64,000 nucleotides of DNA. Source: Ottowia sp. SB7-C50. Its GTDB lineage: Bacteria > Pseudomonadota > Gammaproteobacteria > Burkholderiales > Burkholderiaceae_C. Both the position numbers and the translations under genes were made by a program. The notes under the pieces are model-generated. The model was not told the origin of the DNA and made no database searches. It was given only the letters and a program-made list of their open reading frames with translations. Below are positions 3,104 through 32,719 of this stretch, piece by piece (the stretch's first letter is position 1; every line of letters begins with the position of its first letter). Where the stretch lies: NCBI RefSeq assembly GCF_033110285.1, contig NZ_CP136995.1, positions 1,612,001 through 1,676,000 on the forward strand. The letters are read 5' to 3'.

Positions 3104-3213
3104 CCGGACGCGAAGGACGCGAAGATTCCGCAAAGGACGCAAAAAATCCAAAGAAAAACTCCTGGCTGTTTCTTTCGCGTCCTTCGCGAGTCCTTTGCGT
3201 CCTTCGCGTCCGG
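3104..3213. repeat. Inverted GGACGC repeat element, copy 1
   Basis: A 110-bp element framed by CCGGACGCGAAGGACGC on the left and its inverse GCGTCCTTCGCGTCCGG on the right; internal GGACGC units recur on both arms. The second copy, at 25310-25413, has the same architecture (104 bp). It occupies most of the space between the small membrane protein and the convergent MFS gene. Confidence 0.75.
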
Positions 3214-3246
3214 TATTCGATATCCAGAGAAATAAAAACGGCCCCT

Positions 3247-3291
3247 GCGCTCGCCAATCAAGCGCCGGAAGCTATCAAAAAAGAAGCAATT
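3247..3291 (-). repeat. Short GATAGCT/AGCGCTT palindromic repeat
   Basis: Shows AAGCGCCGGAAGCTATCAAAA in the minus orientation, matching the short dispersed family. It ends directly at the stop codon of the MFS gene. Confidence 0.6.
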
Positions 3292-8400: not shown

Positions 8401-9204
8401 ATGGCCGTTCTCCGCACCCGCTTCGTCCTGATCGAAACCAGCCACGCCGGCAACGTGGGCGCGGTGGCGCGCGCGATGAAGGTGATGGGGTTCGACGATC
8501 TGGTGCTGGTCAACCCGCGCTGGCCCGACGTGCTGACGCGCCCCGAAGCCATCGAGCGCGCCAGCGGCGCCACCGACGTGCTGCAGCGCGCCCGCACCGT
8601 GCCCACCTTGGACGAGGCGCTGCACGGCATGACCCACCTGTGCGCCACCGCGATGACGCCGCGCGACTTCGGACCGCCCACCCGCGCGCCGCGCGCCCAT
8701 TTCGATTTGCTATTAAATAAAGAGCTGCTTGCGCTGGATGGGCAAGCGCCAGAGCCCGATTTGGCTCAAAACGCCGAACAAGGCGTGGCTTTTCTCTTCG
8801 GCAGCGAGCGCTACGGCATGAAGAACGAAGACGTGTACCGCTGCCACGTCGCGCTCAGCATTCCCACGCACCCGGGCTATGGCTCGCTCAATATCGCCGC
8901 CGCCGTGCAACTGATCGCGTACGACTGGCGCATGGCGCTGGGCGGCTTTGGCGTCGCACCCGCCCCCGCCGCGCCGGTGCACGCCGACGCCGCGCAGGTG
9001 GCCGGCATGCTGGCCCATTGGCAGCAGGCGCTCATCGACATTGATTTTCTCGACCCGGCCGCGCCCAAGAAGCTCATGCCGCGCCTGCAGCAACTCTTCA
9101 ACCGCGCGCAGCCCACGCCGGAAGAAATCCACATCCTGCGCGGCATCGCCAAGGCCATGCAGGGCACCAAAGCGGGCGCCACGGCAGGCGCGGACAAGCG
9201 CTAG
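8401..9204 (+). CDS. trmJ: tRNA (cytidine/uridine-32-2'-O)-methyltransferase TrmJ
   Basis: A SPOUT-class methyltransferase that 2'-O-methylates position 32 of certain tRNAs using S-adenosylmethionine. The 267-residue protein has ETSHAGNVGAVARAMK at residues 13-28 (family motif 1 with the catalytic Arg), FLFGSERYGM around 131-140 and SLNIAAAVQLIAYDWR around 162-177, which forms the trefoil knot. The C-terminal extension (~195-267) is typical of TrmJ. A short dispersed repeat (8706-8765) lies in frame, encoding about 20 residues before the SAM-binding half. The stop codon lies in the CTAG end of the element at 9201-9363. Confidence 0.92.
   Translation: MAVLRTRFVLIETSHAGNVGAVARAMKVMGFDDLVLVNPRWPDVLTRPEAIERASGATDVLQRARTVPTLDEALHGMTHLCATAMTPRDFGPPTRAPRAHFDLLLNKELLALDGQAPEPDLAQNAEQGVAFLFGSERYGMKNEDVYRCHVALSIPTHPGYGSLNIAAAVQLIAYDWRMALGGFGVAPAPAAPVHADAAQVAGMLAHWQQALIDIDFLDPAAPKKLMPRLQQLFNRAQPTPEEIHILRGIAKAMQGTKAGATAGADKR
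8706..8765 (+). repeat. Short palindromic repeat inside trmJ
   Basis: A copy of the GATAGCT/AGCGCTT family: TGCTATTAAATAAAGAGCTG, then TTGCGCT...AAGCGCCAGAGCCC. It lies within the trmJ reading frame and encodes LLLNKELLALDGQAPEP, a surface-loop-like stretch between conserved blocks. Confidence 0.75.
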
Positions 9205-11177: not shown

Positions 11178-11236
11178 ATAAAAACAATAGCTGCCTGCGC
11201 TTGTAAGACAAGCGCTGGGGGCTTAAAACACTTGAA
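11178..11236 (+). repeat. Short palindromic repeat between darP and mogA
   Basis: A near-consensus copy: AATAGCTGCCTGCGCTTGTA followed by AGACAAGCGCTGGGGGCTTA. It fills the 77-bp gap between darP and mogA, and could form a hairpin in their common transcript. Confidence 0.75.
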
Positions 11237-16851: not shown

Positions 16852-18117
16852 CTATCGGTGCAGCGGCAGCGCCTCGGCGCAGGCGTGGGCGCTGGCCCAG
16901 GCCCACTGAAAGTTGTAGCCGCCCAGCCAGCCGGTGACGTCGACCACTTCGCCGATGAAGTACAGGCCGGGCTGGCGGCGGGCTTCGAGGGTCTGGGACG
17001 ACAACTCGCGCGTGTCGACGCCGCCGACGGTGACTTCGGCCTTCTTGTAGCCTTCGGTGCCGGTGGGGGTGAGCGACCAGCGCTGGATGCGTTCGGCCAG
17101 CGCGTGCAGGGCCTTGTCGCTGGCCTCGTTGATGGGGCGCTGCCAGGCGGCGTCCTGCGCGGCCCAGGCGTCGGCCAGGCGTTGCGGCAGCCATGCGGCC
17201 AGTTCTTTGGTGATGAGCTTGCGCGATCCGCGCGCCTTGGCGCCCGCCAGTTCGCCCAGCAGATCGACGCCTGGCGTCAGGTCGATCTCCATCGGCGTGC
17301 GCGGCTGCCAGTAGCTTGAAATCTGCAGCACCGCCGGCCCCGAGAGGCCGCGGTGGGTGAACAACAGGTCTTCATGAAACGTGGTGCGCTGCTTTTTCAC
17401 CCCGGTGCTGATCGCCACCGGCAGCGACAGGCCCGCCAGCTGCGCGTAGGGCGCCCATGCGGTGCCGTCGAACGTCAGCGGGACCAGGCCCGGGCGCGTG
17501 TCGGTCACCTTCAGGCCAAACTGGCGCGCCAGATCGAAGCCGAAACCGCTGGCGCCGATCTTGGGGATCGACAGCCCGCCCGTGGCGACCACCAGCGACG
17601 GCGCGCTGACCGGGCCGCGATCGCTATCAATCAAATAGCTGTGCGCGCTTTCTGCATCAGCGCTGGGCGGCGATTTGTCTTGAAATTCGACGCGCCGCAC
17701 CTGGCACGGTTGCCAGCGGGTGACTTCTCCACCGTGGTCGCGTGCAGCGGCGCACTCGTCCAGCAGCAGCTGGATCAGGTCTTCGGCCGACCGGTCACAG
17801 AACAACTGGCCCTTGTGCTTTTCATGCCAGGGCACGCCGTGGCGGTCCAGCAGGTCGATGAAGTCGCGCGGCGTGTAGCGCGCCAGTGCCGAGCGGCAGA
17901 AATGCGGGTTGGCACTGAGAAAGTGCCGGTGCGGCGCGGCCGGGTCGAGGTCGCGGTTGGTGAAGTTGGCCCGCCCGCCGCCCGAGATGCGCACCTTTTC
18001 GGCCACGCGCTCGCTGTGGTCGATCAGCACCACGCGCGCGCCGCGCCGGGCGGCCTGCGCGGCACAGAACAGGCCGGCAGCGCCTGCGCCGAGGATGACG
18101 ACATCGCAATGAAGCAT
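16852..18117 (-). CDS. HI0933/YhiN-family flavoprotein
   Basis: A 421-residue FAD-binding, BaiN-type protein. It starts with the dinucleotide fold CDVVILGAGAAGLFCA (GxGxxG at about residues 10-15). RISGGGRANFTN near 44-55 and LVVATGGLSIPKIGASG near 180-196 are the HI0933 signatures. The C-terminal VTVGGVDTRELSSQTLEA and FIGEVVDVTGWLGGYNFQWAWASG-like block closes the FAD site. Relatives reduce unsaturated substrates; the substrate is unknown here. Codons for about residues 150-172 (FQDKSPPSADAESAHSYLID) come from an inserted short repeat that keeps the frame. Confidence 0.88.
   Translation of the reverse strand: MLHCDVVILGAGAAGLFCAAQAARRGARVVLIDHSERVAEKVRISGGGRANFTNRDLDPAAPHRHFLSANPHFCRSALARYTPRDFIDLLDRHGVPWHEKHKGQLFCDRSAEDLIQLLLDECAAARDHGGEVTRWQPCQVRRVEFQDKSPPSADAESAHSYLIDSDRGPVSAPSLVVATGGLSIPKIGASGFGFDLARQFGLKVTDTRPGLVPLTFDGTAWAPYAQLAGLSLPVAISTGVKKQRTTFHEDLLFTHRGLSGPAVLQISSYWQPRTPMEIDLTPGVDLLGELAGAKARGSRKLITKELAAWLPQRLADAWAAQDAAWQRPINEASDKALHALAERIQRWSLTPTGTEGYKKAEVTVGGVDTRELSSQTLEARRQPGLYFIGEVVDVTGWLGGYNFQWAWASAHACAEALPLHR
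17622..17686 (+). repeat. Short palindromic repeat inside the flavoprotein gene
   Basis: AATCAAATAGCTGTGCGCGC, then TTTCTGCATCAGCGCTGGGC, a recognisable copy in the plus orientation. It is read in frame by the minus-strand flavoprotein gene as a ~20-residue loop between conserved blocks. Confidence 0.65.
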
Positions 18118-21398: not shown

Positions 21399-22283
21399 TC
21401 AGGCAGCGGAATCAAAACCATACAGCCGCGCCGGGTTGTCGACCAGGATGCGGTCCATGGCCGCGTCGCTGGCAGACCAGGCCTGCAGCAGGTCCACCAG
21501 ATCGGCGTCGTTCACGGTGCCGGGTGTCTCGGTGGTGTGCGGCCAGTCGCTGCCCCACACCAGGCGGTCGGGCGCGGCCTGCACCAGAGCTTGGCCCAGC
21601 GGCAGGGTATCTGCATAACTGGGGCCATGCACGGTTGATCGCATGTAGGCGCCCGAGAGCTTGACCCAGGTGTTGCCACCATCCAGCAGCCTCCGCACCA
21701 CGCCATAGGCCTGCGCAGCTGGGCCTTGGGCCGGATCAATGCGGCCCAGATGGTCGATGACCAACGGCACGGGCAGGGTTTGCAGCTGGGGCACCAGTTC
21801 GATGAGTTGCTCGGGGTGCACAAAGATCTGGATGTGCCAGCCCGCACAGGCCGGGTGCTCGGCCACCTTGCGCGCCAGCGTGGCGAGCATGTCGGGCGTG
21901 GTCTCGCCCCACGACTGCGGCGACACGAAATTGACGCGCAGCCCGCGCACGCGCCGCGCCGCCAGGCGGGCCAGTTCGGCATCGGTCACGTCCTGCGCCA
22001 CCACGGCCACGCCGCGCGCGCTGTCGCCCAGCTGGTCCAGCGCATCCAGCGTGCAGGCGTTGTCGGTGCCATAGGTCGACGGCGTCACCACCACCGCGCG
22101 CGACGTGCCCAGGCGCTGCTGCAGCAGGCGGTAGGCGGCCACGGGCGCGTCGGGCGGCGTGCGCGGCCAGTGCGGCGACGGCGCAAAGCGCGGGTCAAAG
22201 ATGTGCATGTGGCTGTCGCACGCGCCGGGCGGCAACTGGCGCTGCGGGCGGTTCAGGCCCACCGAGTGGGGCACCGGGGTCAT
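21399..22283 (-). CDS. Amidohydrolase (2-pyrone-4,6-dicarboxylate lactonase-like)
   Basis: A 294-residue TIM-barrel hydrolase of the amidohydrolase-2 / LigI-like type. The first metal motif reads CDSHMHIFD at residues 22-30. VVVTPSTYGTDN follows near 64-75, then LVIDHLGRIDPAQ near 172-184 and the final strand DRLVWGSDWPHT near 236-247 (catalytic Asp). LigI hydrolyses 2-pyrone-4,6-dicarboxylate, but the substrate here is not proved. Its ATG overlaps the stop of the Bug gene upstream in an ATGA. A second paralogue lies at 28175-29071. Confidence 0.85.
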   Translation of the reverse strand: MTPVPHSVGLNRPQRQLPPGACDSHMHIFDPRFAPSPHWPRTPPDAPVAAYRLLQQRLGTSRAVVVTPSTYGTDNACTLDALDQLGDSARGVAVVAQDVTDAELARLAARRVRGLRVNFVSPQSWGETTPDMLATLARKVAEHPACAGWHIQIFVHPEQLIELVPQLQTLPVPLVIDHLGRIDPAQGPAAQAYGVVRRLLDGGNTWVKLSGAYMRSTVHGPSYADTLPLGQALVQAAPDRLVWGSDWPHTTETPGTVNDADLVDLLQAWSASDAAMDRILVDNPARLYGFDSAA

Positions 22284-23251
22284 TGCTTTTCAATACCCAC
22301 TTTGACTGCCACCGACTCCCACAACTGGGCATCTGCCTTCAGCTTGTCTGCAAAGGCGGTTCCACTGAGCACGCTGGGCACGGCACCGAGGTCTGTGGCA
22401 AAGGTCTGAACATCCGCGCTGGCCATGGCTTTTGTGATTTCCTGGCGCAGCTTGTTCAGTACGGCTTCTGGAGTGCCTTTGGGCGCCCACAGGCCGGTGA
22501 AATTGACCACTTTGTAGCCCGGCGCCCCCGCCTGGGCAAACGTGGGCACATTGGGTACGGCCTTGAGCCGCTGCTCGCCGCTCACTGCCAGCAGGCGCAC
22601 TTTGTCGGCACGCACTTGCCCCATCACACCAGGAGTGGATGCGATCTGGAAATCGATGGTCCCGCCCAGCAACGCCAAGGTGGCTTCACCAGCGCCTTTG
22701 AAGGGCACGTGGGTGGCCTTGAGGCCGCTGGCAACTTGCAGTGCTTCGGTTGCGAAGTGGGGCATGGTGCCCGCTCCGCCGGTGCCGTAGTTGAGCTTGC
22801 CCGGGTTGGCTTGGGAATATGCCACCAAGTCGCCCAGCGTTTTGAATGGGGAGTTGGCGGCTACCACCAAGGAGGTCGGGGCGAAGTTGAAACCAGCCAC
22901 AGGCACCAGGTCGTTGGCGTAGTCCCAAGGCAGCTTCTTGAACACCTGGGGAAGGATGGAGTAGGTGGTGTCGTTGGCCAAGAGCGTGTAGCCATCACTT
23001 GGCGAACGCGCCACCTGGTTGGCACCGATGGTGCCCGTGCCACCCGCCTTGTTTTCGACAAAGAAGCTCTGGCCGGTTTGCTCTGTGAGCTTTTGGGCTA
23101 TGCGTCGGGTTACCTGATCGACCGCACCGCCGGGCGGGTAGGGCACCACGATCTTGACGGCTTTGTCCGGGTAGCCGGTTTGTGCCATGGCATGGGCCAT
23201 GGCGAAAGTCAGCGCGAGGGCTGCGCTCAGTGAGGTGTGAATGCGTTGCAT
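22280..23251 (-). CDS. Bug/TctC-family periplasmic receptor (1)
   Basis: A 323-residue tripartite tricarboxylate transporter substrate-binding protein. The signal peptide ends AMAHAMAQ (about residue 24). The mature part has the two family loops: PYPPGGAVDQVTR near 37-49, which binds carboxylates through backbone amides, and DGYTLLANDTTYSI near 85-98. APTSLVVAANSPFKT and THVPFKGAGEA are also conserved. It captures an unknown carboxylate for uptake. Codon choice is visibly less GC-rich than in the neighbouring Bug genes, which may indicate a separate origin. Coupled by ATGA to the amidohydrolase. Confidence 0.92.
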   Translation of the reverse strand: MQRIHTSLSAALALTFAMAHAMAQTGYPDKAVKIVVPYPPGGAVDQVTRRIAQKLTEQTGQSFFVENKAGGTGTIGANQVARSPSDGYTLLANDTTYSILPQVFKKLPWDYANDLVPVAGFNFAPTSLVVAANSPFKTLGDLVAYSQANPGKLNYGTGGAGTMPHFATEALQVASGLKATHVPFKGAGEATLALLGGTIDFQIASTPGVMGQVRADKVRLLAVSGEQRLKAVPNVPTFAQAGAPGYKVVNFTGLWAPKGTPEAVLNKLRQEITKAMASADVQTFATDLGAVPSVLSGTAFADKLKADAQLWESVAVKVGIEKQ

Positions 23252-23272
23252 GAGCGTCTCCTTGTCTGTAGT

Positions 23273-24259
23273 TCAATCAGCTTTGAGGTCGAGTGCCTTG
23301 GCGATCTGGCCATAAGTGGTCGCCTCGCGGGCCACGCGGCTGGCAAAGGCATTGCCGCAGACCGATTCAGCGTCCAGCCCCAGGCCGCGCAGCTTGTCGA
23401 CGGCCGATGCGCTCTTGGCAAAGTCGGCAGCCGTGCGCTCCAGCGCCTGGGCAATGGGCTCGGGCAGGCCTGCGGGGGCCAGCAGGCCGTACCAGGCGTC
23501 GGCCGAATAGTTGCCGCCGCCAGACTCGGCAAACGTCGGCACGTCGGGCAGCAGCGTCGACCGCTTGGGCGACGCCACGGCCAGCGCCGCCAGCTTGCCG
23601 CTGCGAATCTGCGGAAGCACCGAGCCCAGCGTGGCGAACGAGCTGTCGAGCTGGCCGCCCATCAGGTCCGTCACCACGGGTGCAGCGCCCTTGTAGGGCA
23701 CATGATTGAGCTGAAGCCCCTGGGCGCGGGCAAACATCTCGGTGGCAAAATGGCCTGAACTGCCCACACCGGCCGTGCCTGCGGTCACGCGGCCGGGTTC
23801 GGCACGGGCCTTGGCTTGGTAGTCGGCCAGGGTCTTCACCGGCAGGCTGGGGGCCACCACCAGCACCGTGGGGCTGCTGGCCACCGTGCACAGGGGGCGG
23901 AAGGACTTCACCGCATCAAACTTGACGCGTCCGCTGTACAGGGCGGGAATCATGGTGTGGTTGGTGGCGCCAAACAGCAGCGTGTAGCCATCGGCCGGTG
24001 CGCCGGCCACCGCCTGCGCGGCCAGGATGGTGTTGGCGCCGGGCTTGTTGTCGACCACGAAGGGCTGGCCCAGCACGCGGCTGGCGTGTTCGGCAAAGGC
24101 GCGCGCCACCACGTCGGTGGGGCCGCCCGCCGCAAAGCCCACCACCAGCTTGACGGGCTTGGCGGGATACGCGCCGGCTTGCGCAAGGCAGACGCCGGAT
24201 GCTATGGATAACGTAGCTGCCAGCGCTTTGGCCATAAGCGCTGCAGGCCGTTTTGGCAT
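23273..24259 (-). CDS. Bug/TctC-family periplasmic receptor (2)
   Basis: A 328-residue Bug receptor, starting at the ATG at 24259 (MPKRPAALMAKALAATLS). The signal peptide, cleaved near CLAQA, is encoded by a copy of the short dispersed repeat. Mature-domain marks: VGFAAGGPTDVVARA near 39-53, DNKPGANTILAAQAV, DGYTLLFGATNH and NHVPYKGAAPVVTDLMGG. The first ligand loop has GFAAGG instead of PYPPGG, so ligand preference may differ from the other five. The gap to the next Bug gene downstream is only 21 bp, consistent with one transcript. Confidence 0.92.
   Translation of the reverse strand: MPKRPAALMAKALAATLSIASGVCLAQAGAYPAKPVKLVVGFAAGGPTDVVARAFAEHASRVLGQPFVVDNKPGANTILAAQAVAGAPADGYTLLFGATNHTMIPALYSGRVKFDAVKSFRPLCTVASSPTVLVVAPSLPVKTLADYQAKARAEPGRVTAGTAGVGSSGHFATEMFARAQGLQLNHVPYKGAAPVVTDLMGGQLDSSFATLGSVLPQIRSGKLAALAVASPKRSTLLPDVPTFAESGGGNYSADAWYGLLAPAGLPEPIAQALERTAADFAKSASAVDKLRGLGLDAESVCGNAFASRVAREATTYGQIAKALDLKAD
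24195..24256 (+). repeat. Short palindromic repeat encoding a signal peptide (Bug 2)
   Basis: GTAGCTGCCAGCGCTTTGGC then CATAAGCGCTGCAGGCCGTT, a near-consensus copy. On the minus strand its sequence forms the first ~20 codons of the Bug receptor at 23273-24259. Confidence 0.85.
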
Positions 24260-24296
24260 GATATTCACGGTGTGTGTCCTGAACAGGGGCGCGGCC

Positions 24297-25289
24297 TCAG
24301 TCCGTGCGGATGCCGCTCTGGCGGATCACGCGCGCCCATTTCGTGGTCTCAGATTGCAGGAACGCGCGGAAGTCCTGCGCGCTGGAGCCGACGCCGCTCA
24401 CGCCCAGCTCGGCGAAGCGCTTTTTCACGTCGGGGCTGGCGACGATGGCGCGGGTTTCGGCTTCGAGCCGCTGCAGCACGGGCTGCGGCGTGCCGGCGGG
24501 TGCGAACAAGCCGTTCCACTCGCTGACCTGAAAGCCCGGCAGGCCGGATTCGGCCACCGTCGGCACCTGTTCCCAGCCCTCGACCCGCTTGGGCGACGTC
24601 ACCGCCAACGCACGCAGCTTGCCGCCCTTGACGAACGGGCCGCTGGCCGTGGTGGCGCTGAACATCAGGTCCACCTGGCCGCCGATCAGGTCGGTCAGCG
24701 CCGGCGCTCCGCCGCGGTACGGGATGTGGGTGATCGACACCCGCGCGCCCTGCTTGAACAGCTCGCCCGCCAGATGCTGCGCACCGCCATTGCCGGCCGA
24801 CGCGTAGGTCAGGTGGCCGGGCTTGGCGCGCGCCGCCTGGGTCAGGTCGGCCACCGACTTCAGCGGCGACGCGGTCGGCACCACCAGCAGCAGCGGCGCC
24901 TGCATCACCAGCGAAATCGGCGCGAAGTCCTTGGCCGCGTCGAAGGGCATCTTGGGCAGCAGGCTGGGGTTGACGGTGAAGGCCGTCGCGTCCAGCAGCA
25001 GCGTGTAGCCGTCGGGCGCCGCCTTGGCCACCGCCGCCGCGCCGATGGTGCCGCTGCCGCCGGGCCGGTTGTCCACCACCACCTGCTGGCCCAGCCGGCT
25101 GGACAGCTGCGTGGCCAGCAGGCGCGCGGTGTTGTCGGCGTTGCCGCCCGCGGGGTAGGGCACGATCAGCTTGAGCGGTCGGTCGGGCCAGGCCGCCTGT
25201 GCGTAGGTGGGCTGCGGGCTGGCCGCGCCAACTGCAAAAGTGATAGCTGCCAGCGCTTTCGTAGCAAGCGCTGCAGGCCATTTTGGCAT
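24297..25289 (-). CDS. Bug/TctC-family periplasmic receptor (3)
   Basis: A 330-residue Bug receptor starting at the ATG at 25289 (MPKWPAALATKALAAITF). The signal peptide again derives from a copy of the short repeat and is nearly the same as in the neighbouring receptor, although the mature proteins differ. The leader is cleaved near PTYAQA. Ligand loops read VPYPAGGNADNTARL near 43-57 and DGYTLLLDATAFTVNP; THIPYRGGAPALTDLIGGQ is conserved. First gene of a likely minus-strand transcript of three receptors, an amidohydrolase and a lactonase. Confidence 0.92.
   Translation of the reverse strand: MPKWPAALATKALAAITFAVGAASPQPTYAQAAWPDRPLKLIVPYPAGGNADNTARLLATQLSSRLGQQVVVDNRPGGSGTIGAAAVAKAAPDGYTLLLDATAFTVNPSLLPKMPFDAAKDFAPISLVMQAPLLLVVPTASPLKSVADLTQAARAKPGHLTYASAGNGGAQHLAGELFKQGARVSITHIPYRGGAPALTDLIGGQVDLMFSATTASGPFVKGGKLRALAVTSPKRVEGWEQVPTVAESGLPGFQVSEWNGLFAPAGTPQPVLQRLEAETRAIVASPDVKKRFAELGVSGVGSSAQDFRAFLQSETTKWARVIRQSGIRTD
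25240..25289 (+). repeat. Short palindromic repeat encoding a signal peptide (Bug 3)
   Basis: GATAGCTGCCAGCGCTTTCG then TAGCAAGCGCTGCAGGCCAT, essentially the consensus. The minus-strand reading gives the start codon region and the first 16 or so residues of the Bug receptor at 24297-25289. Confidence 0.88.
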
Positions 25290-25309
25290 GTTCAAATCCT
25301 TGAAAACAG

Positions 25310-25413
25310 CCGGACGCAGAGGACGCAGAGATTCCGCAGAGGACGCAGAAAAAATCTTCATGTGGCTGTTCCTTTCGCGTCTTTCGCGAGCCTTTTGCGT
25401 CCTTCGCGTCCGG
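25310..25413. repeat. Inverted GGACGC repeat element, copy 2
   Basis: CCGGACGCAGAGGACGCAGA at the left and GCGTCCTTCGCGTCCGG at the right, with the same internal layout as 3104-3213. It separates two minus-strand gene runs of the Bug cluster (25290-25513 is otherwise empty) and lies where a promoter or terminator would be expected. Confidence 0.75.
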
Positions 25414-25513
25414 TTTTCGGGATGGGGCGCCAACGCACATCCGCGCGTCAGTGATCGTTTCAAGCTTTCGTGCATGGTGTCTTCGTCCGAGTGGCAAAGG
25501 GCCAAGGCCACGC

Positions 25514-26452
25514 TCAGGCCGCGGCAGCCGGTGTGCTTTCCAGCACCGCCAGCACGTTGCGCGCCGCGCCCACGCCCATGTTGATGTAGGCGTCGCTCGT
25601 CACGCCGCCAATGTGCGGGCTGAGGACGAAGTTCGGCTCGCCCTGGAACGGGTGGCCGGCGGTCATCGGCTCAACCGCAAAGCTGTCCAGCCCCGCCACA
25701 GCCACCTGGCCCGAACGCACGGCCTGCAGCAGCGCGTCTTCATCGATCAGGCCGCCGCGTGCCGTGTTGACCAGCAGCACGCCGCGCTTGCAGGCGGCCA
25801 GCGTCTGCGCGTTGAGCAGGTTGGCGTTGTCGGCCGTCAGCGGGCAGTGCAGCGAAATGGCGTCGGATTCGCGCCAGATCGTGTCCAGGTCCACGGGGCG
25901 GATGTACGGCGGCAGGTCCTTGGCAAACGGGTCGTGCCCCAGCACCGTCATGCCCATGGCATCGCACATGCGCGCGAAGCGCTGGCCGATGGCGCCCAGG
26001 CCGACCAGGCCAATGGTGCGCCCGCCCAGTTCCACGCTCTTGTGCGTGGCCTTGTCCCAGTGGCCGGCATGCATGCGCGCGTTGAGCGGCACCACCGACT
26101 TGGCGCAGGCCAGCAGCAGCGCCAGCGCCTGCTCGGCCACGGCGGCGGCGTTGGCGCCCACGGCGGCGCGCACTTCGATGCCACGCGCCTTGGCGGCGTC
26201 CTTGTCGATGGTGTCGGTGCCGCTGCCGTGCTTGGAGATCACGCGCAGCGAAGGCGCGGCGTCCATCACGGCCGCGCCGACCTTGCCGTAGCGCACGATC
26301 ATCGCCACCGGGTCGTGCTGGCGGCACAGGGCCACCAGATCCGGCTCGGTGGGCGTCTTGCCGGCGTAAACGATCTCGAAATCGCGCAGGATGTCGAGTG
26401 CCTGCGATGCCAGGTCGGCACCGGTGACGATGAGGGCGGGGCGTGTGCTCAC
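25514..26452 (-). CDS. D-2-hydroxyacid dehydrogenase family protein
   Basis: A 312-residue NAD(P)-dependent dehydrogenase. Rossmann motif GLVGLGAIGQRFARM near residues 147-161; catalytic Arg in NTARGGLIDEDA near 227-238; Glu in the SFAVEPMTAGHP block; His in LSPHIGGVTSDA near 281-292. It would interconvert a 2-hydroxy acid and a 2-keto acid in the cytoplasm, substrate unknown. The GTG start at 26452 was chosen because it overlaps the upstream stop in a GTGA; the open frame continues to 26506 but reads as low-complexity Arg. Confidence 0.85.
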   Translation of the reverse strand: MSTRPALIVTGADLASQALDILRDFEIVYAGKTPTEPDLVALCRQHDPVAMIVRYGKVGAAVMDAAPSLRVISKHGSGTDTIDKDAAKARGIEVRAAVGANAAAVAEQALALLLACAKSVVPLNARMHAGHWDKATHKSVELGGRTIGLVGLGAIGQRFARMCDAMGMTVLGHDPFAKDLPPYIRPVDLDTIWRESDAISLHCPLTADNANLLNAQTLAACKRGVLLVNTARGGLIDEDALLQAVRSGQVAVAGLDSFAVEPMTAGHPFQGEPNFVLSPHIGGVTSDAYINMGVGAARNVLAVLESTPAAAA

Positions 26453-32650: not shown

Positions 32651-32673
32651 GATGGTTTGGTGGTAAAAAAGGG

Positions 32674-32719
32674 CTGCAGCGCCTTCTGGTATTGCGCAGG
32701 AAGCTATCAAATAAAGAGT
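32674..32719 (-). repeat. Short palindromic repeat before the ModA-like gene
   Basis: TGCAGCGCCTTCTGGTATTG then CGCAGGAAGCTATCAAATAA, a clear copy in the minus orientation. The remainder of the 32651-32896 gap shows no gene. Confidence 0.7.

Follow-up and report, generated by a model that had tools for sequence, protein, structure and literature searches.

Signal peptides evolve quickly, and where they came from can seldom be traced. Two neighbouring genes for Bug/TctC receptors in Ottowia sp. SB7-C50 raise the question of whether the DNA that gave rise to a leader can still be recognized at the 5′ end of a gene. The genes lie in a stretch of 64,000 nucleotides (contig NZ_CP136995.1, positions 1,612,001 to 1,676,000), referred to here as the window, which also carries copies of a dispersed palindromic repeat. 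A preliminary description had read the N-termini of both receptors as direct translations of this repeat. Our analysis bears this out and indicates that the element, about 66 bp long, likely became part of several unrelated genes for exported-type proteins, at their 5′ ends.

The repeat was represented by a DNA covariance model (R1) built from 12 copies, five in the window and seven elsewhere in the genome; both receptor leaders were excluded. R1 matches both leaders, and the features of the locus are as follows (G311 is a second genome of the same genus).

24297-25289, minus strand: Bug/TctC receptor P3 (Pfam TctC, 2.5e-79, and sequence); N-terminus formed by a repeat copy
25229-25294, minus strand: repeat copy of 66 bp in the P3 leader, covering n-region and hydrophobic core (R1 match 25234-25287, 37.2 bits)
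25194-25289, minus strand: putative P3 signal peptide, 32 codons; cleavage placed by eye after AQA
25290-25513, minus strand: spacer 5′ of P3, 224 nucleotides with a second kind of repeat (16 nucleotides in G311)
23273-24268, minus strand: Bug/TctC receptor P2 (Pfam TctC, 1.1e-64); N-terminus formed by a repeat copy
24268 (GTG, probable by comparison with G311) and 24259 (ATG), minus strand: start codons of P2
24199-24264, minus strand: repeat copy of 66 bp in the P2 leader, covering n-region and hydrophobic core (R1 match 24214-24257, 28.8 bits)
24176-24268, minus strand: putative P2 signal peptide, 31 codons; cleavage placed by eye after AQA
22280-23251, minus strand: Bug receptor P1, with an ordinary leader in this strain

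P3, P2 and P1 are three consecutive Bug/TctC genes on the minus strand, with P3 upstream-most. Counted from ATG, the two repeat-led genes span 24297-25289 and 23273-24259, and their leader peptides are MPKWPAALATKALAA (P3) and MPKRPAALMAKALAA (P2). Both proteins match the TctC profile (PF03401) far above its cut-off of 27 bits (219 bits for P2, 267 bits for P3). The R1 matches have expectation values (E) in the window of 1.1e-6 for the P3 leader and 1e-4 for the P2 leader, the latter over model positions 11-54 only. The leaders are identical to each other at 41 of 47 nucleotides; in the flanking 10 to 60 nucleotides on each side identity is 0.1 to 0.45. Judged by this DNA likeness, the P2 and P3 leaders are translated copies of the dispersed repeat. 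They are not the near-consensus copies that had been described: neither is among the R1 matches listed for the whole genome (at least 150 copies, 33 to 63 bits), and both are nearer to copies of other Comamonadaceae, some of which read K-P-K-W-P-P-A-L-I-Q-Q-A-L-A-A in the leader frame. Concerted evolution of the two leaders is unsupported, their identity (0.82) being equal to that between P2 here and P2 of Acidovorax sp. MR-S7 (0.82).

A homologue search with residues 1-40 of P3 gave 57 candidates, none at E ≤ 10, and Rfam returned nothing relevant over 23000-26000 (one chance-level match). A stringent DNA pattern of the leader was found at 31 places in 13 of 299 genomes of the family; among the 30 places that were read, a recognizable exported protein follows only at the two in this genome, and four others open frames of 301 to 514 residues, as judged by eye.

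The mature receptors are clearly different, as had been proposed, with 40% identity across 299 aligned residues. Recent duplication was rejected on this identity and on the presence of separate orthologues in G311, which is syntenic in this region (four neighbour genes 73 to 93% identical, P3 73%, P2 66%). In G311 both receptors have ordinary leaders, with no R1 match at either, and none is found at the P3 orthologues of Ramlibacter (L198), Comamonadaceae ALPHA2B (L199) and A87 (L200). All four of these P3 orthologues have ordinary signal peptides that differ from the repeat leader. Comparison with G311 also corrects the start of P2, previously placed at ATG 24259. Translation probably begins at the in-frame GTG 24268 (VNIMPKRP...), the old start of the gene, because a CAGGA motif and its spacing to the start match the G311 orthologue. 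The ATG of P3 stands where several other repeat copies read AAG. Both leaders have the predicted basic n-region and Ala/Leu core, as judged by sequence and hydropathy alone, with a lysine inside each core (KALAA). The second kind of repeat, in the P3 spacer at 25363-25419, is 91% identical over 57 nucleotides to a copy at 3163-3219.

Repeat leaders at this locus are shared with other genera. P3 orthologues carry one in Diaphorobacter nitroreducens, Acidovorax sp. MR-S7 and A. kalamii (38-55 bits), as do P2 orthologues in the two Acidovorax genomes (37-53 bits). A P3 tree of 15 rows groups the eight repeat-bearing genes (one at 21 bits) on a branch of 97/94, apart from four genes without the repeat; the outgroup consists of three distant rows, of which L201 and L202 carry no R1 scoring. 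The simplest reading is a single recruitment in the ancestor common with the Acidovorax and Diaphorobacter relatives, followed by inheritance. The P2 leader, which was not part of the tree, was probably likewise inherited from a shared ancestor. The D. nitroreducens stretch lacks P2, and its P1 orthologue bears a P2-type repeat leader. Beyond residue 38 this protein and our P1 agree at 260 of 282 positions. Its leader, by contrast, agrees with the leader of MR-S7 P2 at 19 of 30 positions and with that of our P1 at 8 of 27. The same chimera occurs in G003, which suggests that repeat leaders can pass between genes. In G295 the P2 gene looks broken, because a P2-type repeat leader meets a stop after about 40 residues (L277).

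The same kind of leader is found on proteins unrelated to TctC. A protein profile made from eight leaders matched 119 of the 299 genomes at E ≤ 0.05, non-coding copies included, and 70 loci chosen from the match list were read. By codon score, their 76 matches comprise 42 at N-termini in coding-type frames, 30 that look non-coding, two internal and two C-terminal; several of the 42 are orthologues of one another, and the profile is in itself biased towards signal peptides. We counted a family if a leader scores at least 24 bits with R1 and the same protein has a Pfam match. Eight families pass: TctC, DUF2147, GSDH, TPM_phosphatase, Peptidase_M48, PBP_like_2, SBP_bac_5 and Amidohydro_2. Members of these families are normally exported. 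The weakest leaders are those of Peptidase_M48 (24.1 and 26.4 bits), and the Pfam match of Amidohydro_2 is scarcely above its cut-off (27.7 versus 26.4). A second PBP_like_2 protein (L322) has weak DNA support at its leader (14.8 bits), a second SBP_bac_5 protein (L308) has no R1 match there, and L337 has a leader at 47.2 bits and no Pfam match. A TonB receptor (L292, L320) and a further Bug type (L304, L324) were left uncounted for weak DNA support (15-17 bits). A DUF2147 protein at 674588 of this genome has a repeat leader at 40.5 bits and, with P2 and P3, brings the repeat-derived leaders in this genome to at least three on two unrelated families. In this strain and in related bacteria, several secreted proteins of unrelated families likely owe their export tag to the repeat.

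Two of these families were taken as test cases. Among 21 DUF2147 proteins (20 of the genus and one other), eight leaders score at least 24 bits, five are remnants at 12-24 bits and eight score less. Most of the genes shown, whether or not they carry the repeat, have a start codon that overlaps the stop of the upstream gene and encode a leader of 28 to 30 residues. Repeated insertion explains this no better than an old repeat leader that was eroded in some lineages; the DUF2147 tree has little resolution, with 10 of 17 inner branches open. For TPM_phosphatase (TPM), a repeat leader of at least 24 bits is present in 8 of 34 proteins, all in one half of the tree. Five TPM leaders remain near the repeat consensus (48-58 bits) despite widely differing mature proteins; selection on the DNA or RNA, or conversion from dispersed copies, would explain this conservation. 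The relatives of P2/P3, of the DUF2147 proteins and of the TPM proteins that lack the repeat have ordinary-looking signal peptides, and the repeat would therefore have replaced an existing signal. This separates two parts of the preliminary description. Recurrent recruitment holds at the level of sequence, because P2 and P3 are not recent duplicates and the leader is not conserved where the repeat is absent; seven further Pfam families and fitting residues point the same way. The proposed route to new secreted proteins is not supported, as an existing signal would have been replaced.

The residues that distinguish leaders from ordinary copies fit selection for export. We compared 19 leaders found by orthology, not by the leader profile, with 47 stop-free copies of other genomes, read as the leaders are. 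A hydrophobic residue is encoded at codon 14 in 17 of 19 leaders versus 15 of 47 copies, and at codon 18 in 18 of 19 versus 15 of 47, with lysine or asparagine common at codon 18 in the copies. A charge within codons 13-21 occurs in 2 of 19 leaders and 34 of 47 copies, and the mean hydropathy of the core is 2.07 in leaders versus 0.73 in ordinary copies.

The element itself is 66 bp long, or 22 codons, according to the information profile of 130 copies. Inverted symmetry is seen across the dispersed copies, with core stem pairs kept in 93-100% of those in this genome, and GC content per matched copy is 35-67%. Extrapolation from the window density gives a rough figure of about 730 copies in the genome, and repeat-rich Comamonadaceae genomes probably contain hundreds of copies of the element. 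The window holds 14 distinct R1 copies at E < 0.001, the two leaders and the following.

3231-3284, minus strand: repeat copy, 53.4 bits
8712-8765, plus strand: repeat copy, 38.9 bits, within a TrmJ-like gene and in frame
11178-11231, plus strand: repeat copy, 57.3 bits
15731-15784, minus strand: repeat copy, 36.0 bits
17626-17679, plus strand: repeat copy, 45.8 bits, within a TIGR00275 flavoprotein gene and in frame
32663-32716, minus strand: repeat copy, 31.5 bits
33625-33678, minus strand: repeat copy, 24.7 bits
37150-37203, plus strand: repeat copy, 28.1 bits
44617-44670, plus strand: repeat copy, 47.1 bits
48216-48269, minus strand: repeat copy, 28.6 bits
50449-50502, minus strand: repeat copy, 33.4 bits
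52835-52888, plus strand: repeat copy, 58.0 bits

Copy placement was examined in two samples, with genes called by a simple codon-score script trained on the window. The sample from this genome (30 loci, 80 stretches and the window, the weakest listed copies left out) reduced 162 R1 matches to 141 distinct copies, 130 to 133 of them full length with the two leaders excluded. The sample from other genomes reduced 115 matches to 98 copies. In this genome, intergenic DNA holds 95 of the 141 copies, and a further 14 are contained entirely within called genes. Of the rest, 25 touch the 3′ end of a gene, one of them a 5′ end too, and seven touch a 5′ end only. Elsewhere, 60 of 98 are intergenic, 11 lie inside genes and none overlaps a 5′ end by at least 20 nucleotides. 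Such an overlap occurs for 3 of all 239 copies, leader frame disregarded: two are the P2 and P3 leaders, and the third (L020) is in another frame. Repeat copies are not drawn to gene starts, and use as a leader is rare per copy. The non-random features are the conservation of the leaders, the kind of protein that bears them and their residues.

From these observations a mechanism can be proposed. One strand of the element, in one frame, encodes approximately F-K-x-N-R-P-x-A-L-x-x-Q-A-x-A-A-I-x-L-x-A, a basic n-region followed by an Ala/Leu-rich stretch that turns into a hydrophobic core once two polar positions are changed. Ribosome-binding site, cleavage region and, in many cases, start codon would come from the host gene, and the element would stand where an older signal peptide of similar length had been. 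This replacement may have been an insertion with loss of the old core, or a conversion. DNA identity with the repeat, reading frame, synteny, conservation among orthologues and residue changes together argue for this uptake at the sequence level. A bolder version treats the repeat as an export module that can be used again and again: dispersed copies would time after time replace or renew the signal-peptide cores of unrelated genes, perhaps by gene conversion, and leaders would move between genes. Leaders would then remain near the repeat consensus with the palindrome preserved, as the TPM leaders at 48-58 bits do in several genera, even as the mature proteins diverge. This version is possible, and we advance it only tentatively.

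Several points weigh against uptake as an export signal. Sec export and cleavage of the leaders are inferred from sequence. The number of leaders is in itself no evidence, because uniform scatter of about 730 copies gives about five in frame at gene starts. Leaders other than those of P2 and P3 were mostly found by a profile made from leaders. The 19 leaders of the residue comparison are not independent because they are drawn from three families, and four of them score below 24 bits with R1 (two below 19). A frame control with profiles from non-leader copies has little power because its strongest copies are nearly all non-coding by codon score (30 of 31, 32 of 33 and 24 of 28 in the three frames). 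The distance from start to mature domain is about equal with and without the repeat, and no clean insertion is visible.

The leaders could also derive from one or a few recruitments followed by swapping between genes through recombination, rather than from repeated uptake of dispersed copies. The P2-type leader on P1 of D. nitroreducens and G003 is an observed swap, but it joins genes that are homologous neighbours; the remaining families have no relationship to TctC, and the repeat itself is the only sequence they share for recombination. We regard this course as improbable, though it is the strongest of the competing explanations. Considerably less probable is that the element is kept for a role in DNA or RNA, such as a hairpin or control of the mRNA, with its translation incidental. 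The near-consensus TPM leaders on divergent proteins favour such a role, as does the pairing of the palindrome, which is about equal in leaders and other copies (0.80 in 28 leaders versus 0.81 and 0.86). The shift of core residues from the repeat consensus towards hydrophobic speaks against it, and the two start regions in the window fold no better than shuffles (z -0.74 and -0.53).

Ala/Leu-rich signal peptides of a GC-rich genome might resemble a translation of the repeat by chance, and the protein profile does match leaders with weak DNA support, such as those of the TonB receptor and the further Bug type. Chance has very little to recommend it here, given that R1, whose training set contained no leaders, scores leader DNA at 29-58 bits and that the matching block has sharp edges. 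We give equally little credence to the reverse descent, in which the repeat family arose from a signal-peptide coding sequence: translated end to end in one frame, the element does give a basic start with an Ala/Leu core, but ordinary copies often hold stops or charged or polar residues in the leader frame, which is stop-free in 68 of 133 copies in this genome and 47 of 98 elsewhere. Uptake of the repeat at gene starts is the reading that we prefer.

Three described systems resemble this one in part. The enterobacterial mobile repeat RU-2 (YPAL) of Yersinia forms part of the predicted signal peptide of the putative exported protein YPO1552 (Delihas 2007, PMC2759123), and such fusions were proposed as building blocks of new proteins (PMC2759123; review PMC2229807). 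RU-2 shares with the Comamonadaceae leaders the presence of a repeat within a putative signal peptide; it is 168 bp long, enterobacterial and reported for one or few putative proteins, whereas the element here is 66 bp long, belongs to Comamonadaceae and occurs on eight Pfam families. The Comamonadaceae leaders, unlike the RU-2 case, are conserved among genera, with residue changes consistent with selection. Rickettsia palindromic elements (RPE) occur within many genes, in frame (PMC10969869, PMC2229807). Both they and the present element are short palindromes found between genes and in frame inside conserved protein genes; RPE are set apart by their description, being 105-150 bp long and reported inside proteins, whereas the element here is 66 bp long and in part putative signal peptide. 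The Betaproteobacterial repeat element (BRE) is likewise dispersed in Comamonadaceae, as well as in Bordetella, and sometimes lies within coding sequences (PMC3110155). It is described as about 90 bp long, with a mean GC content of 69% in Bordetella, at most 29 copies per genome at its threshold and often in tandem (PMC3110155), unlike the element here (66 bp, 35-67% GC, at least 150 copies). The present case joins features of RU-2 and RPE: a coding palindrome inside named enzyme genes and recurrent putative signal-peptide use in known families. A literature search that included the letters of the repeat found no report of the element or of its signal-peptide use, most subscription papers being outside its coverage.

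Copies inside genes were seen in frame in proteins of the TrmJ and TIGR00275 flavoprotein types (window 8712-8765 and 17626-17679) and of the DapE, PurL, TlyA, DEXH helicase, acyl-CoA ligase and threonine-efflux transporter types (L152, L168, L027, L134, L164 and L175). Eight of the 14 copy-holding proteins in this genome matched named families, several below curated cut-offs, and in several the matched part exceeds the profile by 12 to 42 residues. A length of 66 bp preserves the reading frame in six frames. The copy in the TIGR00275-type flavoprotein is seemingly at the same place in another genus (L410, G085). At another Bug gene (L100, 118911-119909 of the genome, and L101 in G313), a weak copy (20.0 and 15.8 bits) abuts the start codon in the other orientation, as an untranslated leader. 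Each of eight repeat-rich genomes has at least one Y1_Tnp gene, with 20 matches in G015 and one here, a RAYT-like gene at 711999-712325 (L486). Near nine of these Y1_Tnp genes, 29.8 kb hold five distinct copies at E < 0.001, a density not above that of the window.

A DNA source of signal peptides is visible here, one that unrelated exported-type proteins of one bacterial family would have in common. Also visible are the substitutions by which an ordinary repeat copy differs from what looks like a working signal. Fusions of leaders and of ordinary copies could thus serve to test directly how repeats turn into parts of proteins. The finding also carries a warning for the Comamonadaceae, in which some annotated N-termini fall within repeats.
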